NCBI RefSeq assembly: GCF_003751265.1
Contig: NZ_RJKN01000008.1
Location: forward strand, 62,001-126,000
Direction: 5' to 3'
Length of the DNA: 64,000 nucleotides
From: Pseudokineococcus lusitanus
GTDB taxonomy: Bacteria > Actinomycetota > Actinomycetes > Actinomycetales > Quadrisphaeraceae
Shown: piece by piece, positions 35,802 to 59,963 of the stretch
Layout: each line of letters opens with the position of its first letter
Numbering within the stretch: position 1 is the first letter of the stretch
Made by a program: the position numbers and the translations under genes
The notes under the pieces: generated by a model
What the model was told of the DNA's origin: nothing
The model's database searches: none
The model's input: only the letters and a program-made list of their open reading frames with translations

Positions 35802-37661
35802 TCAGGGCGCGGGTGGGGCGCTCGCCGCCGGCGTCGTGCGGAGGGCGGCGGGAGCCCGGGGGCGGGGGACGCCCGTGCCCGCCGGTCCGGGGAGGTCCGG
35901 CGGCGCGGGGCGGGCGAGGTGGAAGCCCTGCGCGTGGGTGGCGCCGAGGAGGCGGAGCTCGGCGAGCTCGGCGGCGTCCTCGACCCCCTCGGCGACGCAG
36001 GTGGCGCCGAGCTCGTGGGACAGGCCGATGACGGCGCGGGCGATGGCACGGCGGGCGGGGTCGGTGTGGACGGCGCGGACGAAGGCGATGTCGAGCTTGA
36101 TGACGTCGGGCTCGAGCCGGGTCAGGTGCTGGAGGCTGGCGTAACCGGCGCCGGTGTCGTCGATGGCCAGCAGGAGGCCTCGGGCCCGGAGGCCGGCGAG
36201 GGCGGTCAGGAGCGTGGGGTAGTCCTGGACCCGGTCGTGCTCGGTGAGCTCGACGACCAGGCGGCGGGGGTGGGCGGGGTCGAGGGCGTCGGCGAGGAGG
36301 TCGTGGGTGGCGGGGTGCAGCAGGGCGGCGGCCGAGAGGTTGACCGACAGGTACTGGCCGGTGGGCAGGTGGGGGAGCAGGGCGAGGGCGTCGGCGGCGG
36401 CGGCCTGCTCCAGCTCGACGCCCAGGCCGAGGTCGGCGGCGTCGGCGAACACGTGGTCGGGACGCCGGGGGGCGCCGGCGGGGTCGGTGAAGCGGGACAG
36501 CGCCTCGTGGCCGGCGACGTCGCCGGTGGCGAGGTCGACGATCGGCTGCAGGACGAGGGTGCGACGTCGCCCGTCCAGATGAGGCGTGAAGGTGCGGCGC
36601 TCGTCCTCGCGGCGCCGGTGCTGCTCGAGCTCCTGCGCGACGTGGGCGCCGACGAGATCGGCGATGGTCTGCAGGGCGCCGAGCTGGCCGGGGGTCAGCG
36701 GCGTCGACGCGGTGGACCCGACGCCGCAGACCGTCCCGTAGAGGGTGCCGTCGGGCAGGTGCACGGGGACGCTGCAGTAGGCGCCGACCCCGAAGGCCTT
36801 CGTGACCGGCAGGGAGGCCAGGGTGGGGTGGCTGCGGACGTCGGCCACCGAGGCGGGCAGCGTGCCGTCCAGCACGCGGCTGCAGTAGCCGTCCGCCGCG
36901 TCGAGGCTGCTGCCCTCGACGAGCCCCTGCAGGGCCGGACCGACGTCGGGGCCGGCCTCGACGACGGTGAAGGTCTGGGTGCCGCCCTCGAGCGTGGACA
37001 GCGCGGTGACCTCCAGGCCGGTGGTCGCGCGTCCGGCGGCCAGCAGCCGCCGCACCACCGGGGAGGTCGCCGTGGAGGCCTCGCCCGGTGCGGTGCCGGA
37101 GCGGTCGCCGGGGCGGCCGCCGCCGGCGAGGGGGGCGAGGACGTCGACGACCTCGAGGGCCCGCTGCCGGGCCCGCAGCGACGTGACACGGACGGCGGCC
37201 TGACGCGTCAGGGCACGGGCCAGCGCCTCGTGGGTGTCGTCGAAGGTGCCGTGGCCCGGGGGGCGGGTCAGGTAGAGCGCGCCGAGCACGACGCCGTCGT
37301 GCGTGACGGGCAGGGCCAGCAGCGCCGCCATCGGGGTGTGCGCCGAGGGCAGCCCGACCGCCTCGGCATGGGTCCGCATGTCGTCCAGCCGCAGCGTCCT
37401 GCCGGTCAGCACCACCCCCACCAGCCCGACGGGCCGGGGCAGGTGCGGCAGCACCGAGACCTCGGTCGACGTCATGCCCTGGTGGGCCAGCGCCGACGGG
37501 GCCCCGTCGGCGCCGACCAGCAGCGCGACGCCGAAGCGCGCGGCCGTGAGGGTGCGGGCGACGTCGACCAGACGCTCCAGCACGCCGCGCTCGGACTCCT
37601 CGCCGGCGATCGAGACGACCCCGTCCACGACGGGGACCAGCTCCTCGGCCGCCGGGCTCAT
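35802..37661 (-). CDS. GAF-GAF-EAL c-di-GMP phosphodiesterase
   Basis: A 619-residue soluble protein. Residues 15-165 form a GAF domain (FGVALLVGADG; LALPVTHDGVVLGALYLT). A second GAF-like domain (about 205-365) contains YCSVPVHLPDGTLYGTVCGV. The EAL domain (390-600) keeps the catalytic motifs HEALSRF, NLSAA, ELTEH, DDTGAGYAS, IKLDIAFV, AEGVED and QGFHLARP; no GGDEF domain is present. It should hydrolyse c-di-GMP under control of the GAF ligands. The ATG at 37661 overlaps the GGDEF gene stop by four bases, so synthase and hydrolase are made together. Confidence 0.9.
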   Translation of the reverse strand: MSPAAEELVPVVDGVVSIAGEESERGVLERLVDVARTLTAARFGVALLVGADGAPSALAHQGMTSTEVSVLPHLPRPVGLVGVVLTGRTLRLDDMRTHAEAVGLPSAHTPMAALLALPVTHDGVVLGALYLTRPPGHGTFDDTHEALARALTRQAAVRVTSLRARQRALEVVDVLAPLAGGGRPGDRSGTAPGEASTATSPVVRRLLAAGRATTGLEVTALSTLEGGTQTFTVVEAGPDVGPALQGLVEGSSLDAADGYCSRVLDGTLPASVADVRSHPTLASLPVTKAFGVGAYCSVPVHLPDGTLYGTVCGVGSTASTPLTPGQLGALQTIADLVGAHVAQELEQHRRREDERRTFTPHLDGRRRTLVLQPIVDLATGDVAGHEALSRFTDPAGAPRRPDHVFADAADLGLGVELEQAAAADALALLPHLPTGQYLSVNLSAAALLHPATHDLLADALDPAHPRRLVVELTEHDRVQDYPTLLTALAGLRARGLLLAIDDTGAGYASLQHLTRLEPDVIKLDIAFVRAVHTDPARRAIARAVIGLSHELGATCVAEGVEDAAELAELRLLGATHAQGFHLARPAPPDLPGPAGTGVPRPRAPAALRTTPAASAPPAP

Positions 37662-38728
37662 GCCGCCCTCGTCGGGGACGGCCGGCCCGGCGCCGGCTGG
37701 GAGGGGATGCGGTGCGCCGTGTCCCGCACGGCCGGCTCGTGGACGACGAGGTGGTGCTTGCCGGAGCGCTTGGCGGCGTACATCGCCGTGTCCGCACGCA
37801 CCAGCACCTCCGCCGCCGTGGTGGGCGGCGTGGTCGCGTCCAGGTGCACCAGGCCGGCGCTGACGCCGACCGTCCGCGGGGCGCCCGCGACGTCGTAGCT
37901 CTGGCCGGCCAGCACGCCCCGGGCGACCGCGGTGATCCGCTCGAGCGGGGTGTCGTCCTCGACCAGCAGGGCGAACTCGTCGCCGCCGAGGCGCGCGAGG
38001 GTGTTGCCGGGGCTGACCATCGCCGCCCACCGGGCGGCGACCTGCACCAGCAGGTCGTCGCCGACGGCGTGCCCGTGCGTGTCGTTGACGCCCTTGAAGT
38101 CGTCGAGGTCCATCAGCAGCACCGTGATAGCCCGTCCGTCGGAGCGGTGCAGGTCCAGCGCGTGCGCCAGGCGGTCGTGGAACACCGCCCGGGTGGCCAG
38201 GCCGGTGAGCCCGTCGTGGGTCGCCAGCCGGTGCAGCTCGGCCTCCCGCTCCCGGGCCTGCGCCCGCAGCCGCTCGGACAGCAGCACCTGCGCGAGCAGG
38301 TCGGCCAGCAGGTCGAGGACGGGCGCGAGCCGCTCGACCTCCCCGGCGGCCACGGACCGGGGGTGGTAGCCGCACAACGTCCCGTACAGGTGCCCGTCCT
38401 CGAGCCGGATCGGCGCGCCGACGTAGGCCCCGACCGGCCACTGCTGCACCGGGGCCGTCGCGGCGTACTCCTCGACCGCGGCGGTGTCGTGCGCCAGCCG
38501 GGGTGCGCCGGCGACCATCCGTCGGCACAGGGAGCCCTCCCACGAGGCCACGTCGCCCGGGGCGAAGCCGAAGGTGTCGTCGCGGACGTCGACGAAGACC
38601 TGCTCCTCGCCGTCACGGCGGGTGATCGCCCACATGCCGAGCGGCAGCTGCTCCTGCAGGCACGACAGCACCCGTGCGCTGGCGGCCTCGAAGGACAGCA
38701 GCCCGTCCACCGGCTCCTCGCCCGTCAC
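37658..38728 (-). CDS. GAF-GGDEF diguanylate cyclase
   Basis: A 356-residue protein. The N-terminal GAF domain (about 10-165) has YVGAPIRLEDGHLYGTLCGY, closely like the second GAF of the next gene. A helix (AQAREREAELHRLATHDGLTGL) leads into the GGDEF domain, with GGDEF at 248-252. The inhibitory RxxD site is absent (SPGN). I chose the GTG at 38728: GGGGAG lies five bases upstream and the codon overlaps the acetamidase stop as GTGA. An upstream GTG at 38821 would add 31 residues of low complexity. Expected to synthesise c-di-GMP. Confidence 0.88.
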   Translation of the reverse strand: MTGEEPVDGLLSFEAASARVLSCLQEQLPLGMWAITRRDGEEQVFVDVRDDTFGFAPGDVASWEGSLCRRMVAGAPRLAHDTAAVEEYAATAPVQQWPVGAYVGAPIRLEDGHLYGTLCGYHPRSVAAGEVERLAPVLDLLADLLAQVLLSERLRAQAREREAELHRLATHDGLTGLATRAVFHDRLAHALDLHRSDGRAITVLLMDLDDFKGVNDTHGHAVGDDLLVQVAARWAAMVSPGNTLARLGGDEFALLVEDDTPLERITAVARGVLAGQSYDVAGAPRTVGVSAGLVHLDATTPPTTAAEVLVRADTAMYAAKRSGKHHLVVHEPAVRDTAHRIPSQPAPGRPSPTRAA

Positions 38729-39894
38729 ACCGACTCCCCGCTCCGTCTCGGGCCGCTCGACCGCGTCCCGTCGTGGCGGTCCATCGGTCCGGGCGGCGAG
38801 CACCTGAGCGGTCGTCGGCACGAGGAGCCATGGGGAGCAGGACCACCGCGGTCAGCCGCCGGTCCACCGAGCCGGCGCCGGTCCCGGTGCCGCGACGAGG
38901 GCCTGCTCGGTCGGCGGCACCGCCCGCCGACGACCAGGCGGCCCGGCGGCAGGACCGCGTGGACCCCGTGCACCTGGTTGACGACCTGGGTGACCCGCAG
39001 GTCCACGGCCACCGACGCCAGGGCCAGCGCGCGGGTGCGGCCGAGGCCGTGCCGCTCGCGCAGCAGCTCGACCATCCCGTCGAGCGCCATGACGGTCGCC
39101 CGGCGGAGGTCGGCGTCCACGCCGAAGGTGACGTCGCCCGCCGGCGTCGTCGCGCGTGGCGTCCGGGCGAGGGCGGGCGAGGGGGCGGTGTGCAGCACGA
39201 CCTCCAGCTCCACGCGCCGCATCGGGCACTCGACGGCGAGGCCGGAGACCTCGCCGTCCCCCTGCGCCGCGTGGCCGTCCCCGACCGACAGCAGCGCCCC
39301 CGGCACCTCGACGGGCAGGAAGAGGCTGCTGCCGACGACGAGCTCGCGGCAGTCGAGGTTCCCGCCGGTCCGGCGCGGGGGCACCGTGCTGCGGGGACCG
39401 GGTCCGGCGGGGCAGACGCCGACGACGCCGAGGAAGGGCCGGAGCGCCACGACGTCGCCGTGCTGGTCGCGCGCGGTGCCGGTGCCCGCGGCGGCGTCCC
39501 AGGCCAGGTGCCAGAGCAGCATCTCGGGGTCGGCGTCCGCGACGCCGAGCGCGTCGTTGCACCAGCTCGGCCAGCCGCCCGCCCGGGTCCAGCCCCAGCC
39601 GCCGGGCTCGAGGGCGCGCACCCGGACCTCCAGCACCGTGCCGGGCTCGGCCCCCACGACGGCGAAGGGCCCGGTGAGCGCGTGCCCGGGGTCCTGCTCG
39701 CGGTCCCGGCCCGGGCGCGGCGCCGGCGCGGCGTCGGGTCCGTGCAGGTCGCCCTGCTCGTCGGCGTGCCATCCGGCGTCGACGGTGGACAGGACGAGGA
39801 CGTCGCCGCTCGCGACCTCCAGCAGGGGCGGGAGGTCGGCGTCGAAGCGCCCGTGGAGCGACGCGTCGCGGTGCGGGACGACGTGGACGGCCAT
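38725..39894 (-). CDS. Acetamidase/formamidase family protein with extended tail
   Basis: A 389-residue protein. The first 325 residues match the acetamidase/formamidase family: GPFAVVGAEPGTVLEVRV, NLDCRELVVGSSLFLPVEVPGALLSVGDGHAAQGDGEVSG in segments, and VNQVHGVHAVLPP. It should release ammonia from short amides. The last 60 residues are Arg/Pro/Ser/Gly-rich and unlike the family; the true gene end may still be this one, since the stop overlaps the GGDEF start by four bases. The tail could be a recent read-through after loss of the original stop. The ATG at 39894 lacks a strong ribosome binding site. Confidence 0.83.
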   Translation of the reverse strand: MAVHVVPHRDASLHGRFDADLPPLLEVASGDVLVLSTVDAGWHADEQGDLHGPDAAPAPRPGRDREQDPGHALTGPFAVVGAEPGTVLEVRVRALEPGGWGWTRAGGWPSWCNDALGVADADPEMLLWHLAWDAAAGTGTARDQHGDVVALRPFLGVVGVCPAGPGPRSTVPPRRTGGNLDCRELVVGSSLFLPVEVPGALLSVGDGHAAQGDGEVSGLAVECPMRRVELEVVLHTAPSPALARTPRATTPAGDVTFGVDADLRRATVMALDGMVELLRERHGLGRTRALALASVAVDLRVTQVVNQVHGVHAVLPPGRLVVGGRCRRPSRPSSRHRDRRRLGGPAADRGGPAPHGSSCRRPLRCSPPGPMDRHDGTRSSGPRRSGESV

Positions 39895-40006
39895 CCCGCG
39901 ACGCTAGGGCGCGGGCCCGGCCGGGCACGAGCCGGCGGGATGCCCACCGCGGCACGGCAGCCGCCACGGCGGGCACGGCGGGCCGGGCGCGCGCAGGATC
40001 GTGGGC

Positions 40007-41038
40007 GTGACCTCCGCACCGCCCGCCCTCCCGGACGACCCGTTCCCGCGCAGCACCTCTCCGACCGCCGACGTCCTGGCGGCGCAGCGCGCCCACCTGC
40101 GGGCGATGCTCGCGGCCGGCGAGCTGGACGTCCCGCTGCCCGGCGTCGGCCGGACGGCCGAGCGGTGGGCCGCCCTCGCGGAGTGGGGGAGCGCCGACCT
40201 CGTGCTCGGCCGCCTCGCCGAGGGGCACACGGACGCCGTCGCCGTCCTGGCCGAGGCGGGCGTGCCGGCGCCGGAGGACGCGCTGCTCGGCGTGTGGGCG
40301 TCGGCCAGCGAGGGGACGGGGCTGCGGGCCGTCGCCACCGGCGACGGCGGGCTGCGGGTCGCGGGCACCCTGCGCTACGCCAGCGGCGCCCGCGTCCTCG
40401 ACGCCGCGCTCGTCACCGCCACGGAGGACGGCGGGCAGCCGCACCTCGTCCTCCTCGACGTCCGCGGGACCGGCGTGACGCCGCGGCCGGGCACGTGGGC
40501 GGCCGTCGGGATGGACGACAGCGACAGCCTCGACGTCGTCGTCGACGACGTCGACGTGCCCGCCGCCGCGGTCGTCGGCCCGCCGGGCTTCTACGCCGGC
40601 CGGCCCGGCCTCCACGTCGGCGGGCTCGGCGTCGCCGCCGTGTGGTGGGGCGGGGCCCGCGGCGTCGTCCGGGCGCTGACGGCCTCGCTCGCGCGGGGCG
40701 AGGCCTCCGGGCGGGCCCCGACACCGCACCAGCTCGTCCACCTCGGGGCGGCGTCGTCGGCCGTCGCCCGGGGGCAGGCCCTGCTGGCCGAGGCCGCGGG
40801 CGTCGTCGACGCCGACCCGACGGGCGACCGCACGACGCTCGCGCTGCGGGTGCGCCACGAGGTCGACCAGGTGGTCGAGGAGGTGCTGCGCCGCTCGGCC
40901 CGCGCCACGGGCGCCACCCCGCTGTGCCGGGACGCCGACATCGCCCGCCGCGCCGCCGACCTCGCCGTCTACGTCCGCCAGCAGCACGCCGAGGGCGACC
41001 TCGAGCGGCTCGGCCGCGCCGTCCTGGACGCGGCGTGA
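40007..41038 (+). CDS. Acyl-CoA dehydrogenase-like protein
   Basis: A 343-residue protein of the acyl-CoA dehydrogenase fold, somewhat shorter than the usual 380. It has the central beta domain with WASASEGTGLRAVATGDGGL and LRYASGARVLDAALVTA (flavin and substrate binding region) and the C-terminal helical bundle (GGLGVAAVWWGGARGVVRAL). I cannot identify the catalytic Glu with confidence, so activity may differ from beta-oxidation. AGGA nine bases upstream favours the GTG at 40007 over that at 40001. It opens an operon with a deacetylase, methyltransferase and glycosyltransferase, so it probably acts on the acyl part of a glycoconjugate. Confidence 0.82.
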   Translation: MTSAPPALPDDPFPRSTSPTADVLAAQRAHLRAMLAAGELDVPLPGVGRTAERWAALAEWGSADLVLGRLAEGHTDAVAVLAEAGVPAPEDALLGVWASASEGTGLRAVATGDGGLRVAGTLRYASGARVLDAALVTATEDGGQPHLVLLDVRGTGVTPRPGTWAAVGMDDSDSLDVVVDDVDVPAAAVVGPPGFYAGRPGLHVGGLGVAAVWWGGARGVVRALTASLARGEASGRAPTPHQLVHLGAASSAVARGQALLAEAAGVVDADPTGDRTTLALRVRHEVDQVVEEVLRRSARATGATPLCRDADIARRAADLAVYVRQQHAEGDLERLGRAVLDAA

Positions 41039-41760
41039 CCGCGTCGACGGCCACCGCGCGGCCCGGCCGCCCCGTCCTCCCGGTGTGGGCGCCGCCGGTG
41101 CCGCCGGGTCGGGCGCTCGTCGTCGTCGCCCATCCCGACGACGAGGTCCTGGCGCTCGGGCCCGTCGTCACGACGCTCGACGCCGCCGGCTGGGTCCTCG
41201 ACCTGCTCGTCCTCACCGACGGGGAGGCGGCCTACCCCGCCCTCGACGCGGCGGGGCGGGCCCGGCTCGCGGCGGTGCGCCGCGACGAGCTCGACGCCGC
41301 GTGGGCGGCCCTGCTCCCCGGGGCCGGTCACCGCGGCGGGCGGGTGCTCCGGGCGGGGCTGCCCGACGCCCGGCTGCCCGACGTCGCCGCCGCCGTGCGC
41401 GGGGCCGTCGACGCGGCGGCCGCCGCGTCGCCCCCGGACCTCGTCGTGGGCCTGTGGCCGCACGACCCGCACCACGACCACGCCGGGGCGGCGCTCGCGG
41501 CCGTCGCCCTGGCCGCCCGCCTCGCCGTGCCGTCGGTGCAGGCCCCGTTGTGGGCGCGGGTCTGGTGGGACGACGACGACGCCCGCCTGCCCCGGGCGAC
41601 GGCGTCCCGCGTGCCCGTCGCGGGACCGGCGGCGGGCCGGCTCGCCGCGGCGCTCGCCGCCCACGCGAGCCAGGTCGAGGGCTTCGAGGGGCACGGGCCG
41701 CTGCTCGGGCCCGACGACCTCGCCGCGCTCGCCGGCGACGGCCTCGTGGTGACGGCGTGA
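41035..41760 (+). CDS. PIG-L/LmbE-family N-deacetylase
   Basis: A 241-residue zinc-dependent deacetylase. The metal motif AHPDDE occupies residues 32-37 and the second metal site is DPHHDH. TDGEAAYP follows the first motif as in the GlcNAc-PI and GlcNAc-Ins deacetylases. These enzymes remove an acetyl group from an N-acetyl sugar. It overlaps the upstream and downstream genes by four bases each (GTGA). In related actinobacterial and proteobacterial clusters a PIG-L domain is fused to a methyltransferase like the next gene; here they are separate. Confidence 0.9.
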   Translation: MTASTATARPGRPVLPVWAPPVPPGRALVVVAHPDDEVLALGPVVTTLDAAGWVLDLLVLTDGEAAYPALDAAGRARLAAVRRDELDAAWAALLPGAGHRGGRVLRAGLPDARLPDVAAAVRGAVDAAAAASPPDLVVGLWPHDPHHDHAGAALAAVALAARLAVPSVQAPLWARVWWDDDDARLPRATASRVPVAGPAAGRLAAALAAHASQVEGFEGHGPLLGPDDLAALAGDGLVVTA

Positions 41761-42416
41761 GCGCCCCCACGGGCGCAGGGTGTCCGCAGGACCCCGACCG
41801 CTCCGACCTCCCGCCCTTCGACGGCGAGCACTTCGACGCCCTCTACCGGGGCGACGCCGACCCGTGGCGCGTCCGGGGCGACTGGTACGAGCGCCGCAAG
41901 CGCGCCCTAGCGCTGGCGGCCCTGCCGCGCGAGCGCTACGGCCGGGTCCTCGAGATCGGCTGCAGCAACGGCGTCATGACGGTCGAGCTGGCCCGGCGGG
42001 CCGGCCGCCTCACGGCGCTGGACGCCTCCGCCGTCGCGGTGGACCTCGCCCGGCGCGAGGTCGCCGCCGCGGGCCTCGGGGGCGCCGACGTCGACGTCCG
42101 CCGGGGCACCGTGCCGGACGACCTGCCCAGCGGCCCCGGCGCCGTCGTCGACCTCGTCGTCCTCTCCGAGGTGGGGTACTTCCTGCGGCCCGACGCGCTC
42201 GACGAGCTCGTCGCGCGGCTGCCCGCCCTGCTGGCGCCGGGCGGCGAGCTCCTCGCCGTCCACTGGCGGCGGGACCCCGAGACGCTGCCCGTCCCCGGCG
42301 ACGAGGTGCACCGCCGCCTCCGGCGGCTGGAGGACGACGGCGCCGAGCACCTCGTCGCCCACGTCGAGGAGCCGTTCCTCCTCGACGTGTGGCGACGTCC
42401 CGGCGATGACGGCTGA
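41757..42416 (+). CDS. NodS-like SAM-dependent methyltransferase
   Basis: A 219-residue class I methyltransferase. The N-terminal FDALYRGDADPWRVRGDWYERRK lead and the SAM-binding VLEIGCSNGVMTVELA motif are typical of the NodS family (N-methyltransferases of Nod factor synthesis) and its non-symbiotic relatives. Motif II-like VVLSEVGYFL follows. It presumably methylates an amino sugar exposed by the deacetylase encoded just upstream. The GTG start overlaps that gene by four bases and its end overlaps the glycosyltransferase by eleven. Confidence 0.88.
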   Translation: MSAPTGAGCPQDPDRSDLPPFDGEHFDALYRGDADPWRVRGDWYERRKRALALAALPRERYGRVLEIGCSNGVMTVELARRAGRLTALDASAVAVDLARREVAAAGLGGADVDVRRGTVPDDLPSGPGAVVDLVVLSEVGYFLRPDALDELVARLPALLAPGGELLAVHWRRDPETLPVPGDEVHRRLRRLEDDGAEHLVAHVEEPFLLDVWRRPGDDG

Positions 42417-43200
42417 GCCGCACCCCGTCCCGGCGCCGCGCGGCCGCCGACGACCGGTCCGGGCCGTCGTCGTGGCGGTCCCCGTGCGCGACGAGGAGCG
42501 GCGCGTGCGGGCCTGCCTGCGCTCGGTGCTCGCCGCGGCCGCCCGCGTGCCGCTGCCCGTCGTCGTCGCGGTCGCCCTCGACCGCTGCGTCGACGGCTCC
42601 CGCGCCGCCGTGGAGGCCGTGCTCGGGGGCCGCCCCGGCACGCTCGTCGTCGAGCTCGGGCCCGCGCCGCGACGCACCGTCGCGGAGGTGCGGGACGCCG
42701 CCGTGACCGCGGGGCTCGCGCTCGCCCGGCGACGGCGGCCCGTCGCGACGGACGAGCTGTGGGTGGCGGGGACGGACGCGGACACCGTCGTCCCGCCCGG
42801 GTGGCTCGTCGAGCAGGTACGGCGCGCGGACGCGGGGGCGGACCTCGTGGCCGGCGCGGTGGACCTCGACGACGACCCGGGCCTCGACCGCCCGGCCCGC
42901 GAGCGCTACGCCCGCCTCGTCCGGCCCCGCGACGGGGTCGGCGGGGAGGAGCACGGGCACGTCTACGGCGCCGACCTAGGGGTGCGCGCGTCGGCCTGGC
43001 GGGCGGCCGGCGGCTTCCCGCGCGTCGACTCCGGCGAGGACGCGGCGCTGCTCGACGCCGTCGCGGCGGCCGGCGGGGTCGTCGTCCGTCCGACGTGGCC
43101 GCGCGCCGTGACGAGCGGTCGGACGCGCGGACGGGCCGACGGCGGGCTGGCCGACCTCCTCGCCGACCTCGCCGGCCCGGGGCGCGTGCCCAGTGGCTAA
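42406..43200 (+). CDS. Family 2 glycosyltransferase
   Basis: A 264-residue GT-A fold glycosyltransferase. Near the N-terminus is VVVAVPVRDEERRVRACLRS, followed by the acidic GTDADTVVPPGWL (a DxD-like metal site) and later GADLGVRASAWRAAGGF with SGEDAALLD (the ED motif of GT2 enzymes). No transmembrane helix is obvious, so it is cytoplasmic or peripheral. Sugar donor and acceptor are unknown. It closes the four-gene operon. The stop is TAA, rare in this DNA, and it forms part of the TAACGA repeat ahead of the ABC genes. Confidence 0.87.
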   Translation: MTAEPHPVPAPRGRRRPVRAVVVAVPVRDEERRVRACLRSVLAAAARVPLPVVVAVALDRCVDGSRAAVEAVLGGRPGTLVVELGPAPRRTVAEVRDAAVTAGLALARRRRPVATDELWVAGTDADTVVPPGWLVEQVRRADAGADLVAGAVDLDDDPGLDRPARERYARLVRPRDGVGGEEHGHVYGADLGVRASAWRAAGGFPRVDSGEDAALLDAVAAAGGVVVRPTWPRAVTSGRTRGRADGGLADLLADLAGPGRVPSG

Positions 43201-43264: not shown

Positions 43265-44257
43265 GTGCCGCACCGTCGCCCGGTCCTGCCCTCCGTCGCC
43301 CGTCACCACCGCGGGGGCCGTCCCGCGCCCACGACCGCGACGCCGCCGGCGCACCACGGGCGTCCCCGGGCCGGGGCGACCGGGACCGCCGACGGCACGG
43401 CCGCCGACGAGCCCGTGCTCGAGGTCTCCGACCTGCGGGTCGAGGTCCCCGCCACCCGTCGCGACGCCACCGTGCCGCTGCTGCGCGGCGTCGACCTCGC
43501 CGTCGGCGCCGGCGAGCGCGTGGCCCTCGTCGGCGCGTCGGGGTCGGGCAAGAGCCTCACCGCGGCCGCCGTCCGCGGGCAGCTCCCGCCGGGGCTGCGG
43601 GCGCAGGGACGGGTCCGGCTGGGAGGCGCCGACGTCCTCGACGTCCCGGGCCCCCGCCGCCCCGTCGACCGGCGCCCCGCCGTCGTCCTGCAGGACCCCT
43701 CGGCGGCGCTGCACCCGCTCGTCGCCGTCGGTGCCCAGGTGGCGATGCCGCTGCGCGCGCGCCACGACCGGGCGGGGCGCCGCCCGGGTCGCGCCGCCGC
43801 CCGCCGCGCGGTGCTCGAGCTCCTCGCCGCCGTGGGCCTCGAGGACCCGCGGCGCGTCGCCGCGGGCCGCCCGGCCGAGCTGTCCGGCGGCCAGCGCCAG
43901 CGGGTGGCCCTCGCCGTCGCGCTCGCGGCCGCGGCGCCGCTCGTCGTCGCCGACGAGCCGACGACGGCGCTCGACACCGTGACGCAGGCGGCGGTGCTCG
44001 ACGTCCTCGCCGACCGGACCGGGCCCGGCCGCGCCGGCCTCCTCCTCGTCACCCACGACCTCGCCGTCGCCGCGGCGCTCTGCTCCCGCGTCGCCGTCGT
44101 CGCGGACGGCCGGGTCGTCGAGACCGGCCCGACCGCCCGCGTGCTCGCCGCCCCCGGGCACCCGGCCGCCCGCGCGCTCGTCGGGGCCGACCGCGCCGGC
44201 GGCACCGACCCCCGGGCCGGTGCGACCGTCCCCGCCCCGGCGGGCGTGCCGGCGTGA
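43265..44257 (+). CDS. ABC transporter ATPase, peptide/nickel/opine type (DppD/NikD-like)
   Basis: A 330-residue ATPase. A 45-residue Pro/Ala-rich lead precedes the nucleotide-binding domain. Walker A is GASGSGKS, the Q-loop region is AVVLQDPSAALHPLVAVG (typical of oligopeptide-class importers), the signature LSGGQRQR, Walker B LVVADEPTTALD and the H-loop VTHDLAVAAAL. The Cys-rich C-terminal iron-sulfur motif of many DppD proteins is absent. The GTG start has GGAGG seven bases upstream. It pairs with the next ATPase through a GTGA overlap. Confidence 0.9.
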   Translation: MPHRRPVLPSVARHHRGGRPAPTTATPPAHHGRPRAGATGTADGTAADEPVLEVSDLRVEVPATRRDATVPLLRGVDLAVGAGERVALVGASGSGKSLTAAAVRGQLPPGLRAQGRVRLGGADVLDVPGPRRPVDRRPAVVLQDPSAALHPLVAVGAQVAMPLRARHDRAGRRPGRAAARRAVLELLAAVGLEDPRRVAAGRPAELSGGQRQRVALAVALAAAAPLVVADEPTTALDTVTQAAVLDVLADRTGPGRAGLLLVTHDLAVAAALCSRVAVVADGRVVETGPTARVLAAPGHPAARALVGADRAGGTDPRAGATVPAPAGVPA

Positions 44258-45039
44258 GCCTGCTCGAGGCCCGTGGCCTGCACGTCGTCCACCGTCGTCG
44301 TGGCGCCGCGCCCGTCCACGCCCTGGCGGGCGTCGACCTCGTCGTCGCGCCGGGGGAGCGCACCGCGCTCGTGGGCCGCTCGGGCTCGGGCAAGTCCACG
44401 CTCGTCCGCGCGCTGCTCGCGCTGCAGCCGCTCGACGCGGGCACGCTCGTCGCCGGGGGGCGGCCCGTGCGACCCGGCCGGGCAGGGGCCCTGCGCTGGT
44501 TCCGCCGTCTCGTCCAGCTGGTCCCCCAGGACCCGGCCCTCTCCCTCGACCCGCGCGCCGCCGTGCGCGACCTCGTCGCCGAGCCCGTCCGCCGGCTCGA
44601 GCCCGCCGTGGCGCCGGCGGACCGGGCGGCGCGCGTCGCGGGGGCGCTCGAGGCCGTCGGCCTCGACGACGACCTCGCCGACCGGCTCCCCGGACAGCTC
44701 TCCGGCGGGCAGGCCCAGCGGGTCGCGCTCGCCCGCGCGCTCGTCACCCGCCCCCGGCTGCTCGTGGCCGACGAGCCGCTCGGCGGCCTCGACCCGCCCC
44801 GCCGCGCGGACGCCCTCGCCCTGCTCCGGCGGGTCTCGCAGGAGCAGGGGACGGCGCTCGTCGTCGTCTCCCACGACCTCGCCGCGGCCGCCGCGCTCTG
44901 CCCGCGCGTGCTCGTCCTCGACGGCGGCCGCGTCGTCGAGGAGGGCCCCGCCGACGTCGTCCTCGCCGCCCCCCGCTCCGCCGCCGCCCGCGCGCTCGTC
45001 GACGCGTCCGTCGTCGCCCCGGTCCCGTCCCCCGCCTGA
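44254..45039 (+). CDS. ABC transporter ATPase, peptide/nickel/opine type (DppF/NikE-like)
   Basis: A 261-residue ATPase. Walker A GRSGSGKST, Q-loop QLVPQDPALSLDPRAAV, signature LSGGQAQR, Walker B LLVADEPLGGLD and H-loop VSHDLAAAAAL are all present. It forms a heterodimer with the ATPase encoded immediately upstream, overlapping by four bases, and powers the importer whose binding protein and fused permease follow. Confidence 0.9.
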   Translation: MSLLEARGLHVVHRRRGAAPVHALAGVDLVVAPGERTALVGRSGSGKSTLVRALLALQPLDAGTLVAGGRPVRPGRAGALRWFRRLVQLVPQDPALSLDPRAAVRDLVAEPVRRLEPAVAPADRAARVAGALEAVGLDDDLADRLPGQLSGGQAQRVALARALVTRPRLLVADEPLGGLDPPRRADALALLRRVSQEQGTALVVVSHDLAAAAALCPRVLVLDGGRVVEEGPADVVLAAPRSAAARALVDASVVAPVPSPA

Positions 45040-45089
45040 CCCGACCCGCCCCGGCCCCCGCCGGCCCCGCACCCCTGGAGAGCACCGCC

Positions 45090-46619
45090 ATGCCCACCCG
45101 CAGCACCACCGCCGCCCGCGCCGGCGGCCTCCTCCTCGCCGGCACCCTCCTCTCGGGGTGCTTCTCGGCCGGGCCCGCCGGCACCGGGGACGCCGGGGGC
45201 GCCGACGCCGCGGCCCCGGACGACCGCATCCGCATCGCGCACCTGCAGCCGCCCCGCTCCGCGCTGTCGCCCCTGTCGGACGACGCCTTCAAGCTCTCCC
45301 GCTGGTCGACGGCGGAGACGCTCGTCGTCCTCGACGAGGCCGGGGACGCGCAGCCGGCGCTCGCCACGGCGTGGGAGCAGGTCGACGACCTCACCTGGCG
45401 CTTCGCGGTCCGGCCGGGCGTGACCTTCCACGACGGCACCGACCTCACGGCCGCGGCGGTGGTCCGGTCGCTCACCGCGGCGGCCGGCGCGACGACGCCG
45501 CCGCGCATCCTCGACGGCGTGGACCTCACCGCCGAGGTGGACCCGGCCGACCCCTCCGCGGTGCTCGTGCGGACCGCCGAGGTGGACCCGCTGGTGCCGC
45601 AGCGGCTCTCGAGCCCCCAGCTGGTCGTGCTCGCCGAGGCCGCGTACGGCGACGGCGGCGTCGTCGACCCCGTCGGCACGGGCACGGGCGCCTTCGAGCT
45701 GACCGTCCGCGACGGCACGACCGGGGCGACGCTCGAGCGCTACGACGACTACTGGGGGGAGCCGGCGGCGGCCGCGGGCATCGACGCGCGCTACGTCTCC
45801 GACGGGACGGCGCGCGCGGCGGCGCTGCGGACGGGCACCGCGGACGTCGTCGAGGCGATCCCCGTCTCGCAGGCGTCCCTCGTCGACGAGGAGCTCATCA
45901 CCGAGGTCCCGATGCCCCGGACCAACACGCTCTACCTCAACACCGCCGACGGCGTCCTCGCCGACCCGGCGCTGCGCGCCGCCGTGCGGGAGGCGGTCGA
46001 CGCGGAGGGCATCGTCGAGGGCGTCTACGAGGGTCGCGCCGACGTCGCCGAGGGCCTGCTCGGCCCGGCGCTGCCGTGGGCCGCCGAGGGGCGCCCCGAC
46101 CGGACGCCCACCGCGGCGGGGACGGTGCCGCCCGGCACGCCGCTGACCCTCGGGACCTTCACCGACCGGGCCGAGCTGCCCGAGGTCGCCGTCCAGCTCG
46201 AGCAGCAGCTCGAGGCCGTCGGCTTCGACGTGACGCAGGAGGTGCGCGAGTACGCGCAGATCGAGGCCGACGCCCTCGACGGCGCCTTCGACGCCTTCGT
46301 CCTCTCGCGCGCCACGGTCCTCGACTCCGGCGACCCCGTGGCGTACCTCTACTCCGACTTCGCCTGCGAGGGCTCCTTCAACATCTCCCAGCTCTGCGAC
46401 CCGGAGGTCGACGCGGCGCTCGTGCGGGCGTCGAGGACCCCTCCGGGCGACGCGCGACGGGCCGCCGTCCTCGAGGCGGAGCGGCTCGTCCTCGAGGCCG
46501 ACGCCGGCATCCCCATGCTCCACGAGCGGGTGGTCCAGGGAGAGTCGGCGCGGGTGGCCGGGGCGGCGCGCGACCCGCGCGAGCGCCTGCTCGTGCTGCC
46601 CGGGACGAGCGTGGGCTGA
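45090..46619 (+). CDS. Family 5 substrate-binding lipoprotein (peptide/nickel/opine)
   Basis: A 509-residue lipoprotein, lipobox ending at Cys24. It follows the SBP family 5 pattern: FKLSRWSTAETLVVLDEAG and PALATAWEQVDDLTWRFAVR near the N-terminus, then FHDGTDLTAAAV, and FNISQLCDPEVDAALVRA near the end. Family members bind peptides, nickel complexes, heme or opine metallophores such as staphylopine. The ligand here is not deducible; the AT-rich site upstream of the operon would suit a metallophore. GGAGAG lies ten bases upstream of the ATG. Confidence 0.88.
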   Translation: MPTRSTTAARAGGLLLAGTLLSGCFSAGPAGTGDAGGADAAAPDDRIRIAHLQPPRSALSPLSDDAFKLSRWSTAETLVVLDEAGDAQPALATAWEQVDDLTWRFAVRPGVTFHDGTDLTAAAVVRSLTAAAGATTPPRILDGVDLTAEVDPADPSAVLVRTAEVDPLVPQRLSSPQLVVLAEAAYGDGGVVDPVGTGTGAFELTVRDGTTGATLERYDDYWGEPAAAAGIDARYVSDGTARAAALRTGTADVVEAIPVSQASLVDEELITEVPMPRTNTLYLNTADGVLADPALRAAVREAVDAEGIVEGVYEGRADVAEGLLGPALPWAAEGRPDRTPTAAGTVPPGTPLTLGTFTDRAELPEVAVQLEQQLEAVGFDVTQEVREYAQIEADALDGAFDAFVLSRATVLDSGDPVAYLYSDFACEGSFNISQLCDPEVDAALVRASRTPPGDARRAAVLEAERLVLEADAGIPMLHERVVQGESARVAGAARDPRERLLVLPGTSVG

Positions 46620-46624
46620 CGCCC

Positions 46625-48478
46625 GTGACCGCCGGCCCGTCCACGGCCGCGGCGCCCCCGGGCGCCGCGGGCCACCGCGTCCTCGACCCCGACGCCCCCC
46701 GTCCCGCGGTGCCCGCCGACCCGCGCCGGTGGCGGCGGCGGGCCGGCGACCTCGTCGTGCCCGTGTCCCGCCTCGCCGCCGTCGGCGGGACGGTCGCGCT
46801 CGTCGGCCTCCTGCCCTGGCTGTCGCGCACCGACCCGGCGCTCACCGTCCTGCGCAGCCGCTCGGCGGAGACCCTCGCCACCCCCGAGGCGCTCGCGGCC
46901 GTGCGCGCCGACCTCGGGCTGGACGACGGCCCGTGGACGTTCCTCGGACGCTGGCTCGCCGACGCGGTCCGCGGCGACCTCGGGACGTCGTGGGTCAGCG
47001 GGCGGCCGGTCCTCGCCGGGGCGGTCGAGGGGCTCGGCGTGAGCCTCACCCTCATGGCGCTGGCCGCGCTCGTCGCGGTCGTCGTGGCCGGCCTGCTCGT
47101 CCTGCCCACCCTCCGGCGGGCCGCCGGCGGCCGACCGCGCCGTCCGGGCGGCGCGCTCGCCGCGACCCTCGTGGCCCTGCCCGACTTCCTCCTCGCGTCG
47201 GTGCTCCTCGTCGTCGTCGCCGTGTGGTGGGGGGTGCTGCCGCCCTACGGCTGGGAGGGGCTGCACCACGCGGTGCTGCCCGCGCTCGCCCTCGGCGTGC
47301 CGGGCGGGGGCCTGCTCGGCCTGCTCCTCGCGGACGCCGTCGCGGACGCCGCCACGGGCTCCTGGGTCGCCACGTGGACGGCGGCGGGTGCCTCGCGGGC
47401 CATGCTGGCGCGCGGCCTCCTCCTCCGCGCGCTCCCTGGGCTGCTGCCGCAGGTGGGGCTCGTGCTCGTCGGCCTGACGGGCGGCGCCGTCGCCGTCGAG
47501 CAGGTCTTCGCCGTCCCGGGGCTCGGCCGCCTCACCCTCGGCGCCGCGTCGGCGCAGGACCTGCCCGCCCTGCAGGTCGGCGTCCTCGCCCTGCTCCTCG
47601 TCGCCGCCGTCCTCGGGGCGCTCGCGCAGGCGGCGCGGCGGCTGCTCCTCGGCGCGGCGGCCCGCACGGCCGCCCTGCCGCCGCCCCCCGTCCCGACGCC
47701 GGCCGGCCGGGCCGCCTGGGTCGTGCCCGCCGCCGCCGCGCTGCTGCTCGTGCTCGTCGTCGCCCTCGGGCTGCCGGGGGACGCCTACGCCGCCGACCGC
47801 GGGCGGCTCGCCCCGCCGTCGCCGGACCTGCTCCTGGGCGCCGACGCGTCCGGCCGCGACCTCCTCGCCCGCCTGGCCGCGGGGGCCGCCGCGACCGGCG
47901 CGCTCGCGCTCGCCGTCACCGCGCTGTCCTGCGTCCTCGGCGTCGTGCTCGGCCTCCTCCCGCGCGCGACCACGGGGCTCGTCGAGGTGACGAACGCGAC
48001 GCCGCCCGTCGTCGCCGGCATCGTCGTCGTGGCGCTCGTCGGGCCCTCGGCGGCGGGGGCGGCGGTGGCGGTCCTGCTCGTGAGCTGGGCGCCGCTGGCC
48101 GCGCACACGGCCGCGCTCGTCGGCGAGGCGCGGGCCCGTCCGCACGTCGAGGTCCTGCCCGTCCTCGGCGTCGGGCGGGTGCGCCGCACGGTGCGGCACG
48201 TCCTGCCGGCCGTCGTCCCGCCCGTCGTCCGCAACGCCCTCGTCCGGCTGCCCGGCGTCGCGCTGGCGCTCGCCGCCCTCGGCTTCCTCGGGCTGGGCCC
48301 GCAGCCGCCCTCGCCGGACTGGGGCCTCGTCCTGGCCGGCGGGATGCCGTACGTCGAGCGCGCGCCCTGGGTCGTGCTGGCGCCGGCGGGTGCCCTCGTC
48401 GCGCTGTCGGTCCTCGCCGTCACCGCGGCCGGGCTCCGGCCTCCCCGCCGGCGGCGGCCGGGGGCGCGGCGCGGCTGA
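46625..48478 (+). CDS. Fused two-permease ABC transporter protein (DppB-DppC-like)
   Basis: A 617-residue membrane protein made of two complete permease units in one chain. Unit 1 (about 40-345) looks like DppB: a leading helix, ALPDFLLASVLLVVVAVWW, and the coupling loop AAGASRAMLARGLLLRALPG with EQVFAVPGLGRL. Unit 2 (about 360-610) looks like DppC: GADASGRDLLARLAAG, then VLPVLGVGRVRRTVRHVLPA and LGFLGLGPQPPSPDWG. Normally these are two genes. The reading frame is continuous across the junction without a stop, so this is a true fusion. GTG start five bases after the binding-protein stop. It completes the importer with the two ATPases. Confidence 0.88.
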   Translation: MTAGPSTAAAPPGAAGHRVLDPDAPRPAVPADPRRWRRRAGDLVVPVSRLAAVGGTVALVGLLPWLSRTDPALTVLRSRSAETLATPEALAAVRADLGLDDGPWTFLGRWLADAVRGDLGTSWVSGRPVLAGAVEGLGVSLTLMALAALVAVVVAGLLVLPTLRRAAGGRPRRPGGALAATLVALPDFLLASVLLVVVAVWWGVLPPYGWEGLHHAVLPALALGVPGGGLLGLLLADAVADAATGSWVATWTAAGASRAMLARGLLLRALPGLLPQVGLVLVGLTGGAVAVEQVFAVPGLGRLTLGAASAQDLPALQVGVLALLLVAAVLGALAQAARRLLLGAAARTAALPPPPVPTPAGRAAWVVPAAAALLLVLVVALGLPGDAYAADRGRLAPPSPDLLLGADASGRDLLARLAAGAAATGALALAVTALSCVLGVVLGLLPRATTGLVEVTNATPPVVAGIVVVALVGPSAAGAAVAVLLVSWAPLAAHTAALVGEARARPHVEVLPVLGVGRVRRTVRHVLPAVVPPVVRNALVRLPGVALALAALGFLGLGPQPPSPDWGLVLAGGMPYVERAPWVVLAPAGALVALSVLAVTAAGLRPPRRRRPGARRG

Positions 48479-53844: not shown

Positions 53845-56166
53845 TTGGACCGACATGAGGTGAGCGCCGCCCTGGGGGGCGTCCGCAGCGTCTTCCAGCC
53901 CATCGTCGACCTCGACACGGGCGCCGTCGTCGCCTACGAGGCGCTGGCCCGCGGGCCGCGGGGGACCGCGCTGGAGATGCCGTCCGACCTCTTCGACGCC
54001 GCCCGCGCGCACGGGCTCCTCGGCGAGCTCGACGGCGCCTGCCGCCGCGCGGCGCTGAGCGGCGCCGTCGACGCCGGCCTGCTGGCCCCGCTCACCCTCT
54101 TCGTCAACGTCGAGCCCGAGGTGCTCGACGCGGCACCGCTCGACGAGCTGCTCGCCCTCGCCGAGGGGGCGCCGGGCGACCTGCGCGTCGTCGTCGAGCT
54201 CACCGAGCGCGCCCTCGCGGCCCGCCCCGCCGAGCTGCTCCGCACCGTCGAGCGCGTCCGCTCCCTCGGGTGGGGCGTCGCGCTGGACGACGTCGGCGCC
54301 GAGGCGATGTCCCTCGCGCTCATGCCGCTGCTGCGCCCCGACGTCGTCAAGCTCGACCTGCGGCTCGTGCAGGACCGGCCCGGCCCCGCCGTCGCCCAGG
54401 TGATGAACGCCGTCAACGCCTACGCCGAGGAGACGGGCGCCGTCGTCCTCGCGGAGGGGATCGAGCACGAGGGCCACCTCCGCGCGGCCCGCGGGCTCGG
54501 CGCGCGCCTCGGGCAGGGCTGGCTCTTCGGCCGGCCCGGTCCGGGCCCCGTGGCCGGGCTGGCCGTCGGCGCGCTCGCGCTGCCCGCGCCGCCGCCCGTG
54601 CTCCCCGAGCGCTCGTCGCCCTTCGCCCTCCTGCCGCCCGGCACGCCGCTGCGGCGCTCCCCGAAGCGGCTGCTCATCGAGCTGTCCAAGCAGCTCGAGC
54701 GCGAGGCGCTGCGGCTGGGCGAGACCGCCGTCGTCGCCTCGACCTTCCAGGAGGCGCGCCACTTCACGCCCGCGACCGCCGGCCGCTACCGCGACCTCGT
54801 GGAGCGCACGGGCTTCGTCTGCGCCATCGGCGAGGACCTCCCGGCCGAGCCGGTGCCGGGCCTGCGAGGCGCCCACCTCGACCCGACGGACGCGGTCCGG
54901 GGCGAGTGGGACGTCGTCGTCCTCGGCCCCCACTTCTCCGCCGCGCTGCTGGCGCGCGACCTCGGCGACGACGGCCCCGACATGCAGCGCACCTTCGAGT
55001 ACGCGCTGACCTACCGGCGCAGCACGGTCGTCGCCGCGGCGTGCTCGCTGCTCTCCCGGGTGGCGCCGCGGGTGCCGACGGCCCCGGCCGTCCCGGGCGC
55101 GGTCGCGGGTGGTGCGCCGGCGGTCCTCGCGGCGTCCGTGCCCGGCACGACGACCGTGGTCGGGCCCACGGGGGCCGGCGAGGCGCTCCTGCACCGCGCG
55201 CTCGCGGCGACGACGAGCGGCGTCACCATCGCGGACGCCCGCCGCCCCGACATGCCGCTCGTGTACGTCAACGCCGCCTTCGAGCAGCTCTCCGGCCTGC
55301 GCGCCGAGCAGGTCCTCGGGCGCAACTGCCGCTTCCTCCAGGGCAGCGACACCGACCGCGGCGTCGTCGACGCCATCCGCGCCGCGCTCGCCGCCGGCCG
55401 CGAGTGGCACGGGACGCTGCTCAACCACCGCGGCCCCGACCGCGAGCCGTGGTGGAACGAGATCCACCTCTCGCCGGTCCTCGACGAGGACGGCCGGGTG
55501 CTGCAGTACATCGGCGTCCAGGACGACGTCACCCACCGCGTGCAGGCCGAGCGGCGGCTCGCGCAGGAGCGCGACCGCGCCGCCGGCTACCTGGAGCGGC
55601 TCGAGCGGCTGGCCGTCACCGACCCCCTGACCCGCCTCGCCAACCGGCGCGGGGTCGAGGAGGGCGTCGAGGAGGTCCTCGCCCGGGCCGACGCCACGGG
55701 GACCGCCGCGGCCCTGCTCTTCTGCGACCTCGACGGCTTCAAGGCCGTCAACGACCGCCACGGCCACGGGGTCGGGGACGCGCTGCTCGTGGCCGTCGCC
55801 GAGCGGCTGCGCGGGCGTCTGCGCGAGCACGACCTCCTGGCGCGGCCGGGCGGCGACGAGTTCCTCGTCGTCCTGCCCGGGCTCGTGCCCGCCACCGCCG
55901 CGGCGGACGCGGCGCGGGTGGCCGAGGAGCTCGCGGCGGACCTCGCCGCACCCCTCGTGCTGCCCGACGGCCGCCGCGTCGCCGTGGGCGCGAGCGTCGG
56001 CGTCGCCCTGCACCCCGACGACGGCGCCACCTTCCGCGACCTGCTGCACCACGCCGACGGGCGCATGTACGACGCCAAGCGGGCGCGGCGTGCCGCCGTC
56101 GTGCCCGGGCAGGCCGGCGCGCCCGCCCGCGAGCAGGTGGGGCCGGGGGCGACGGCGCCGGCCTGA
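53845..56166 (+). CDS. EAL-DICT-LOV-GGDEF light-type c-di-GMP signalling protein
   Basis: A 773-residue soluble protein with four domains. EAL (1-235): YEAL at 31-34, NVEPE, ELTER, DDVG, VKLDL, AEGIEH, GQGWLFGRP. DICT (about 255-405): ARHFTPATAGRYRDLVERT and WDVVVLGPHFSAALLARDL. LOV (about 450-565): GRNCRFLQG with the flavin-adduct Cys495, then LLNHR, WWNEIHLSPV and YIGVQDDV, so all flavin-contacting Asn, Arg and Gln residues appear. GGDEF (595-760): GGDEF at 669-673 with an RxxD site (REHD). Blue light is therefore a likely input for c-di-GMP turnover. A TTG at 53845 has AGGAG six bases upstream; a GTG at 53860 is an alternative. Confidence 0.9.
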   Translation: MDRHEVSAALGGVRSVFQPIVDLDTGAVVAYEALARGPRGTALEMPSDLFDAARAHGLLGELDGACRRAALSGAVDAGLLAPLTLFVNVEPEVLDAAPLDELLALAEGAPGDLRVVVELTERALAARPAELLRTVERVRSLGWGVALDDVGAEAMSLALMPLLRPDVVKLDLRLVQDRPGPAVAQVMNAVNAYAEETGAVVLAEGIEHEGHLRAARGLGARLGQGWLFGRPGPGPVAGLAVGALALPAPPPVLPERSSPFALLPPGTPLRRSPKRLLIELSKQLEREALRLGETAVVASTFQEARHFTPATAGRYRDLVERTGFVCAIGEDLPAEPVPGLRGAHLDPTDAVRGEWDVVVLGPHFSAALLARDLGDDGPDMQRTFEYALTYRRSTVVAAACSLLSRVAPRVPTAPAVPGAVAGGAPAVLAASVPGTTTVVGPTGAGEALLHRALAATTSGVTIADARRPDMPLVYVNAAFEQLSGLRAEQVLGRNCRFLQGSDTDRGVVDAIRAALAAGREWHGTLLNHRGPDREPWWNEIHLSPVLDEDGRVLQYIGVQDDVTHRVQAERRLAQERDRAAGYLERLERLAVTDPLTRLANRRGVEEGVEEVLARADATGTAAALLFCDLDGFKAVNDRHGHGVGDALLVAVAERLRGRLREHDLLARPGGDEFLVVLPGLVPATAAADAARVAEELAADLAAPLVLPDGRRVAVGASVGVALHPDDGATFRDLLHHADGRMYDAKRARRAAVVPGQAGAPAREQVGPGATAPA

Positions 56167-56374: not shown

Positions 56375-57772
56375 ATGAGCGTCCGTCAGACCACCCGCCG
56401 GACCCGGAGCGCCGCGGCCCTCGCCGCCGGGCTCGGTGTCCTCGTCGCCGTCAGCGGCTGCGCCTCGCAGGAGCAGGCCGGTGTCGGTGGCGGCGGGGAG
56501 AACACCGCCGGGGCCGAGGCCGCCGAGTCGGAGATCGACTGCACGCAGTTCGAGCAGTTCGGCGACACCGACGGCGCCGAGGTCGAGGTCTACACGACCA
56601 TCGTCGACCCCGAGTCGCAGTCCTTCATCGACGCCTTCGGCCCCTTCACCGAGTGCACCGGCATCGAGATCAACTACAACGGCTCGCGCCAGTTCGAGGC
56701 GCAGCTGCCGGTGCGCGTGCAGTCCGGCAACGCCCCCGACATCGCGTTCCTCCCGCAGCCGGGCCTGCTCGCCCAGATGGTGTCCACGGGCGCCGTCGTC
56801 GAGCCGCCGCAGGCCGTCGTCGACAACGTCGACCAGTACTTCAGCGAGGACTGGAAGAACTACGGCACGGTGGACGGCACCTTCTACGCCGCGCCGCTCG
56901 GGGCCAACGTCAAGTCCTTCGTCTGGTACTCGCCCAGCGCCTTCGAGGAGGCGGGCTACGAGATCCCCACCACGTGGGACGAGCTCATGACCCTCTCCGA
57001 CACCATCGCCGCCACGGGCGTCAAGCCCTGGTGCGCGGGCATCGCCTCCGGCGAGGCCACCGGCTGGCCGGCCACCGACTTCCTCGAGGACGTCGTCCTG
57101 CACGCGCAGGGCCCGGACGTCTACGACCAGTGGATCAACCACGAGATCCCGTTCAACGACCCGGCCATCGCCGAGTCGCTGGCGCAGGTCGGCACCGTCC
57201 TCAAGAACGACGAGTACGTCAACGGCGGCCTCGGCGACGTCCGCTCGGTCGCGTCGACGGAGTTCCAGGCGGCGGGCCTGCCGATCCTCGACGGCACGTG
57301 CTTCATGCACCGCCAGGCGAGCTTCTACCAGGCCAACTGGCCCGCGGGCACGGACGTGTCCGAGGACGGCGACGTCTTCGCCTTCCCCTTCCCGACCATC
57401 AACGAGGAGGTCGGCAACGCGGTCGTCGGCGGCGGCGAGTTCGTCGCGGCCTTCAACGAGGAGCCGGCCACGCAGGCCGTCCAGTACTGGCTGTCCACGG
57501 CCGACTGGGCCAACCTCAAGGCGCAGGCCTCCAACCCGGGCTGGCTCAACGCCAACCTCGAGCTGGACCCGGCCAACCTCAAGAGCCCGATCGACCAGCT
57601 CGCGGTCGAGCAGCTGCAGGACCCCGAGGTCACCTTCCGCTTCGACGCCTCGGACCTCATGCCGGCGCAGGTCGGCGCGGACGCCGAGTGGCAGCAGCTC
57701 ACGGACTGGATCGCCGCCGACCAGTCCGACGAGGACACGCTGAACAACATCGAGGCCGCCTGGCCCCAGTGA
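56375..57772 (+). CDS. ABC substrate-binding lipoprotein, alpha-glucoside type (AglE-like)
   Basis: A 465-residue lipoprotein, lipobox ending at Cys29. It follows the SBP family 1 pattern: EVEVYTTIVDPESQSFIDAFGPF, then GSRQFEAQLPVRVQSGNAPDIAFLPQPG in two segments, and WYSPSAFEEAGYEIPTTWDEL. The end runs GEFVAAFNEEPATQAVQYWLSTADW. These features, with the cytoplasmic-loop-rich first permease, match AglE/ThuE-type alpha-glucoside binding proteins. Probable ligands are maltose, trehalose, sucrose or similar. GGAAGGAG precedes the ATG. First gene of the operon under the CTGAAGCGCTTCAG operator. Confidence 0.9.
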   Translation: MSVRQTTRRTRSAAALAAGLGVLVAVSGCASQEQAGVGGGGENTAGAEAAESEIDCTQFEQFGDTDGAEVEVYTTIVDPESQSFIDAFGPFTECTGIEINYNGSRQFEAQLPVRVQSGNAPDIAFLPQPGLLAQMVSTGAVVEPPQAVVDNVDQYFSEDWKNYGTVDGTFYAAPLGANVKSFVWYSPSAFEEAGYEIPTTWDELMTLSDTIAATGVKPWCAGIASGEATGWPATDFLEDVVLHAQGPDVYDQWINHEIPFNDPAIAESLAQVGTVLKNDEYVNGGLGDVRSVASTEFQAAGLPILDGTCFMHRQASFYQANWPAGTDVSEDGDVFAFPFPTINEEVGNAVVGGGEFVAAFNEEPATQAVQYWLSTADWANLKAQASNPGWLNANLELDPANLKSPIDQLAVEQLQDPEVTFRFDASDLMPAQVGADAEWQQLTDWIAADQSDEDTLNNIEAAWPQ

Positions 57773-57853
57773 GCACGCGCCGAGGGCGTCGTCGGGCCGT
57801 GGGAACACGCGTCCGGCGGCGCCCTCGGCCGTCCCGCCCGCTGACGTAGCACC

Positions 57854-57870
57854 CCACGGCCCCGCCGTGG
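57854..57870. other. Intercistronic hairpin
   Basis: CCACGGC and GCCGTGG form a 7-bp stem with a CCC loop, 82 bases after the binding-protein stop and before the permease. It may protect the upstream message or partly end transcription, which would give more binding protein than permease. Confidence 0.4.
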
Positions 57871-57888
57871 CCCCCGCCGCCGGCCCCG

Positions 57889-57962
57889 GCCCGGCGGCCC
57901 CCCGCCGCCCGGCCCCGCCCGGCGGCCCCCCGCCGCCCGGCTCCGCCCGGCGGCCCCCCGCC
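57889..57962 (+). repeat. 28-bp tandem repeat, 2.6 copies, between importer genes
   Basis: The 18-mer GCCCGGCGGCCCCCCGCC starts at 57889, 57917 and 57945, an exact 28-base period; the ten bases between copies are GCCCGGCCCC and GCCCGGCTCC. It fills most of the 226-base gap between binding-protein and permease genes and is over 90 percent G+C. The reading frame stays open through it upstream of the permease start, but the composition looks like expansion rather than coding sequence. Confidence 0.75.
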
Positions 57963-57998
57963 CCTGGGTACCTCCCGGACCTGAGGAGACGCACGCCG

Positions 57999-59929: not shown

Positions 59930-59963
59930 CCGGCACGCCCGCCCCGGCGGGGGAGGTGCGGCC

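Follow-up and report, generated by a model that had tools for sequence, protein, structure and literature searches.

A widespread mobile four-gene cassette that may make an N-methylated, oxidised glucosamine-type conjugate in Actinomycetota and Pseudomonadota

In the mycothiol and bacillithiol pathways (MshA-MshB and BshA-BshB), a glycosyltransferase acts first and a PIG-L deacetylase follows, which yields a small glucosamine (GlcN) conjugate. In Nod factor synthesis, whose core enzymes are NodC, NodB and NodS, deacetylation comes first and N-methylation second (PMC5080398). Group D flavin monooxygenases share the acyl-CoA dehydrogenase fold, and N-hydroxylating enzymes are among their members (PMC6165268, PMC5481743).

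In this study, we analysed a cassette of four genes from Pseudokineococcus lusitanus that combines enzyme types of these systems. The host genome has a size of 3.84 Mb in 19 contigs, and the stretch of 64,000 nucleotides that was analysed (hereafter the window) has a G+C content of approximately 78%. The four genes are co-directional and overlap their neighbours by 4, 4, and 11 bases. An earlier note on this DNA had placed four such overlapping genes at 40007-43200, and the positions of the open reading frames bear out both the coordinates and the overlaps. The genes and the adjoining importer are as follows.

40007..41038, + strand: gene 1, flavoprotein with the acyl-CoA dehydrogenase fold, read as a group D monooxygenase (GTG start)
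41035..41760, + strand: gene 2, PIG-L (CE14-type) de-N-acetylase (GTG start; PF02585, zinc-site residues)
41757..42416, + strand: gene 3, NodS-like SAM-dependent methyltransferase (GTG start; closest solved relative 4isc)
42406..43200, + strand: gene 4, short GT2 (GT-A fold) glycosyltransferase (ATG start; DxD, no QxxRW)
43265..48478, + strand: peptide-type ABC importer (two ATPases, SBP_bac_5, and a double permease), neighbour of the cassette

Gene 1 has a second possible in-frame GTG start at 40001. The PIG-L, NodS-like methyltransferase, and GT2 assignments made earlier are each matched by a Pfam profile. We propose, with a probability of about 0.5, that these genes represent a widespread, mobile, stress-associated cassette for a small N-methylated, oxidised glucosamine-type conjugate. 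Literature searches did not find a paper on the four-gene cassette.

A conserved and mobile unit in two phyla

A scan of the genome collection anchored on the methyltransferase returned 52 loci, which belong to Micrococcales and Nocardioides relatives, Gordonia, Mycobacterium, Pseudomonas, Variovorax, and other Burkholderiales. All four genes were present in the fetched stretches of 47 of these loci, in both Actinomycetota and Pseudomonadota. Gene 1 was missing at two loci (L007 and L024, the latter a contig end), and a full-length glycosyltransferase was absent nearby at three (L028, L056, and L057). To counter the bias of the methyltransferase anchor, the profile of gene 1 was used as a second anchor with a cut-off of E<=1e-15. 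It matched in 32/297 sampled Actinomycetota genomes and 34/399 sampled Pseudomonadota genomes, a frequency of approximately 8-11% in the two phyla. Within the fetched stretches, the methyltransferase was also found at 18/20 gene-1-anchored loci in Actinomycetota and 34/35 in Pseudomonadota, and the complete set at 10/20 and 26/35, respectively. The linkage across Actinomycetota and Proteobacteria on which the earlier note had staked its operon thus holds from both anchors. Chance adjacency of the four genes is ruled out by this cross-phylum linkage, since the same four are found together in dozens of genomes across both phyla.

The commonest gene order is gene 1, PIG-L, methyltransferase, and glycosyltransferase; in the Pseudomonas loci, the glycosyltransferase gene is convergent. 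Plasmids carry the whole or a partial set in Acinetobacter, Pandoraea, Cupriavidus, Paraburkholderia, Rubrobacter, and Deinococcus, and the cassette is therefore able to move. Its presence is patchy within the genus, as only one of the three congeners searched (G003) has it. The four genes are a real, conserved, and mobile unit.

The four enzymes and their predicted order of action

Gene 2 belongs to the PIG-L/CE14 deacetylases by both its family profile (PF02585, E=1.1e-20) and its zinc-site residues: HPDDE (AHPDDE) and DxHxDH are invariant or nearly so among the 73 members aligned. Gene 3 matches PF13649 (9.4e-14) and, above the curated cut-off, the NodS family PF05401 (9e-9). Its identity as NodS itself is ruled out by the score of 42.8 bits against the NCBIfam NodS equivalog, far under the cut-off of 300, and its score with PDB 4isc (119.6 bits) well exceeds that with NodS (36.6 bits).

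Most Actinomycetota have the PIG-L and methyltransferase domains fused within one reading frame, which favours consecutive reactions. The two proteins are separate in the window and in the congener G003, as in Pseudomonadota. A PIG-L gene was not found near gene 1 in the family taken as Rubrobacteraceae, where 7/7 genomes examined have an unrelated CE4 (NodB-superfamily) polysaccharide deacetylase (PF01522) upstream of gene 1. The replacement of one de-N-acetylase by an unrelated one with retention of the methyltransferase suggests that the substrate of the cassette is an N-acetylated sugar. Because of the gene fusion and the CE4 replacement, the deacetylase and then the methyltransferase very probably act in sequence, which makes an N-methylated amino-sugar product reasonable; a deacetylation-methylation core of the predicted pathway is well supported by these comparisons. 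The earlier note had proposed a small N-methylated, possibly acylated amino-sugar product. Its N-methylated part gains from the fusion and the CE4 swap, and its acylated part found no support. The Rubrobacteraceae-form loci (L094:5960-9778 and L115-L121) also have, in most genomes, a Pyr_redox_2 flavoprotein between the methyltransferase and the glycosyltransferase, and its linkage to the cassette is confined to this family. Group D flavin monooxygenases oxygenate their substrates with reduced flavin that they receive from a reductase.

Gene 1 had been called an acyl-CoA dehydrogenase-like protein, a function that the present analysis does not uphold. Its matches to acyl-CoA dehydrogenase families in Pfam are weak (0.007 and 0.026, under the cut-off). 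Structure prediction gave a confident model (pLDDT 90.6) with the acyl-CoA dehydrogenase fold, and the best 25 Foldseek matches are all flavin monooxygenases, including DszC, TdsC, Rv3094c, MsuC, and the sugar N-oxygenase KijD3; a dehydrogenase first appears at rank 26. The nearest folds are thus oxygenases, as in group D flavin monooxygenases. In a search of its profile against solved proteins, the dehydrogenase ColB1 was the best match, followed by the monooxygenases DszC and TdsC; further matches were acyl-CoA dehydrogenases, methanesulfinate monooxygenase, nitrososynthase, and DnmZ. Acyl-CoA dehydrogenases carry their catalytic Glu in a C-terminal YEG-T/S motif, although isovaleryl-CoA dehydrogenase has its base at a second site. 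In gene 1, an invariant Gln (Q325) aligns with the YEG-S catalytic Glu of a canonical acyl-CoA dehydrogenase from the same genome, a reading of one alignment with one canonical protein at this C-terminal site only. Based on the fold matches and the Gln in place of the catalytic Glu, we infer that gene 1 encodes a group D flavin monooxygenase. In the gene 1 tree, which is unrooted, the window copy is placed on the Pseudomonadota side (98/94) on a long branch. The relative in Deinococcus gobiensis (L090:4917-7265) has 782 aa, with approximately 400 extra N-terminal residues that have no Pfam match.

Gene 4 encodes a GT2 protein of 264 aa (PF00535, 2.1e-8), and QxxRW is absent from it and from all 37 aligned relatives. 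Its model has a GT-A fold, with AvpGT, WrtF, and the teichoic-acid transferases TarS and TarP as the nearest structures, and its profile reaches ArnC-type undecaprenyl-phosphate transferases. These matches, and a Deinococcus set that adjoins glf and another glycosyltransferase gene, are consistent with modification of an envelope glycolipid or polysaccharide. On the cytosolic face, the glycosyltransferase would then attach GlcNAc to a membrane-borne or polymeric acceptor, and deacetylation, N-methylation, and oxidation of this GlcNAc would alter the surface charge. However, Kyte-Doolittle analysis gave no clear membrane span in any of the four proteins, and the cassette has no linked flippase, polymerase, or ligase gene. 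One glycosyltransferase segment in the window scores 2.05, yet only 2/37 relatives exceed 1.9. We regard an envelope role as rather unlikely, although it survives best among the alternatives to a small glucosamine-type conjugate.

Genomic surroundings and stress genes

The patchy presence within the genus and the plasmid copies would also suit a specialised-metabolite tailoring cassette, which makes or decorates a secreted amino-sugar compound of an antibiotic- or signal-like kind; KijD3 and DnmZ tailor the sugars of antibiotics. However, neither export genes nor genes for a scaffold (PKS, NRPS, or terpene synthase) recur beside the cassette, and its occurrence in many non-producer genera and in one-tenth or so of the sampled genomes is broad for a single antibiotic, so we consider such a function improbable.

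The ABC importer follows the cassette in the window and also in G003, the only congener searched that has the cassette. Linkage of the importer to the cassette was not found outside the genus, and it is therefore treated as a neighbour that probably lies outside the cassette proper; its candidacy as a fifth member is unsupported beyond this genus. A catabolic or detoxification route for an imported amino-sugar or peptide-like compound, to which this importer 3' of the cassette and the xenobiotics that are often substrates of group D enzymes might point, is quite improbable, as two of the enzymes, the glycosyltransferase and the SAM-dependent methyltransferase, are anabolic and the transporter is unlinked elsewhere.

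Both importer permeases are unusually fused in one frame of 620 aa (46616-48478), which contains two BPD_transp_1 domains. Several second-messenger proteins with GAF/GGDEF/EAL (and PAS/DICT) domains are encoded within 20 kb on either side of the cassette (35802-38821 and 53845-56166). The region 56500-60000, which contains a solute-binding protein and a permease, has a G+C content of 0.65-0.71 against approximately 0.78 and was possibly acquired.

The preferred reading, a stress-associated cassette for a glucosamine-type conjugate, draws on gene context in other genomes. On an Acinetobacter plasmid, the cassette lies among genes for catalase, DUF421, an iron-containing redox enzyme, and otsAB. 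It adjoins catalase, a PA2169-type protein, and GlgE in Cupriavidus, and LigD, a CBM48/alpha-amylase protein, and DUF2383 at other loci. As a control, every catalase, OtsA, and LigD gene was located in 35 cassette-bearing Pseudomonadota genomes, which hold 36 cassette loci. Within 10 kb of the cassette, catalase was found at 4/36 loci (0.33 expected), OtsA at 3/36 (0.14 expected), and LigD at 3/36 (0.15 expected). At least one of the three was present at 9/36 loci against 0.62 expected (Poisson 2e-8, with loci treated as independent), and the stress association therefore concerns a minority of loci. PF14518 iron-containing redox proteins adjoin the cassette in Pseudomonas and Acinetobacter. 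DtpC, a desiccation factor of A. baumannii, is described as a diiron protein of the heme-oxygenase-like kind (PMC13232832). In their main text, the Acinetobacter stress papers searched do not mention the enzyme types of the cassette. Catalase occurs at only one Actinomycetota locus (L103), and no stress genes were seen among the neighbours of the window copy. From the gene context in Pseudomonadota, we infer a role of the cassette in stress. A gene for a DUF72 protein lies near the cassette in most Pseudomonas loci (e.g., L018:7131-7874).

Proposed pathway and comparison with known systems

We propose a pathway that would begin with the GT2 enzyme, which may use a nucleotide sugar as donor and pass an N-acetylated sugar, most likely GlcNAc, to a small acceptor. 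The deacetylase would free the amino group of the transferred sugar, and the NodS-like enzyme would N-methylate this amino group at once. The flavoprotein, as a putative group D monooxygenase comparable to KijD3 and DnmZ on amino sugars, might then oxidise the methylated amine or its neighbourhood. The product would be a general-stress metabolite under drying, oxidative, or osmotic stress. Against this pathway, a dehydrogenase, ColB1, tops the sequence matches of the gene 1 profile, and PIG-L enzymes also use non-sugar amides as substrates.

A more far-reaching and tentative possibility is that N-methylated, N-oxidised glucosamine conjugates constitute an undescribed class of stress metabolites, present in about one-tenth of the sampled Actinomycetota and Pseudomonadota genomes and protective in drying or oxidative stress. 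If so, a four-gene pathway with gene 1 in 34/399 and 32/297 sampled genomes would lead to a small molecule for which no report was found, and amino-sugar chemistry would be linked to how soil, plant-associated, and hospital bacteria survive drying and oxidative stress. Ready biochemical tests of the cassette substrate would come from its fused and CE4-replaced forms.

Like the Nod factor core, the cassette has a glycosyltransferase, a de-N-acetylase, and an N-methyltransferase. The earlier description of a Nod-factor-like enzyme set stands for these enzyme types and fails for the NodC-, NodB-, and NodS-type identities, on grounds of motif, family, and score. The cassette GT2 is short and lacks the QxxRW motif and the membrane segments of NodC. 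The deacetylase in the window is a PIG-L enzyme and not a CE4 enzyme (PF01522) such as NodB, and CE4 occurs only in the Rubrobacteraceae form. The methyltransferase falls far short of the NodS equivalog, and the cassette has an extra flavoprotein. A Nod-factor pathway is rejected on the features of the GT2, the deacetylase, and the methyltransferase, and the earlier conclusion that the product must differ from a Nod factor agrees with all three. NodA (PF02474) had no match within the cassette or elsewhere in the host genome, and the control genomes were likewise silent.

Gene 1 shares its fold and remote sequence similarity with the group D sugar N-oxygenases and nitrososynthases KijD3 and DnmZ, but it is shorter and the identity is only approximately 20%. 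Amino-sugar oxidation of this type would fit with the deacetylase and the methyltransferase. Among bacterial stress islands (katE, otsAB, ligD, DUF2383, and PF14518), the Pseudomonadota cassette is repeatedly found inside or beside such islands, whereas the window copy lies outside any of them.

The pairing of a glycosyltransferase with a PIG-L deacetylase, and the order in which they would act, are comparable to those of mycothiol and bacillithiol synthesis. Membership in these pathways is rejected, with only 20-23 bits for the BshB2, BshB1, and Mca models, far under their cut-offs. The cassette glycosyltransferase is of family GT2, whereas MshA and BshA are GT4 enzymes; the cassette has no cysteine ligase, and it adds N-methylation and a flavoprotein. 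The proposed N-methylated, N-oxidised glucosamine conjugate might offer the same kind of protection as mycothiol and bacillithiol through a different chemistry.
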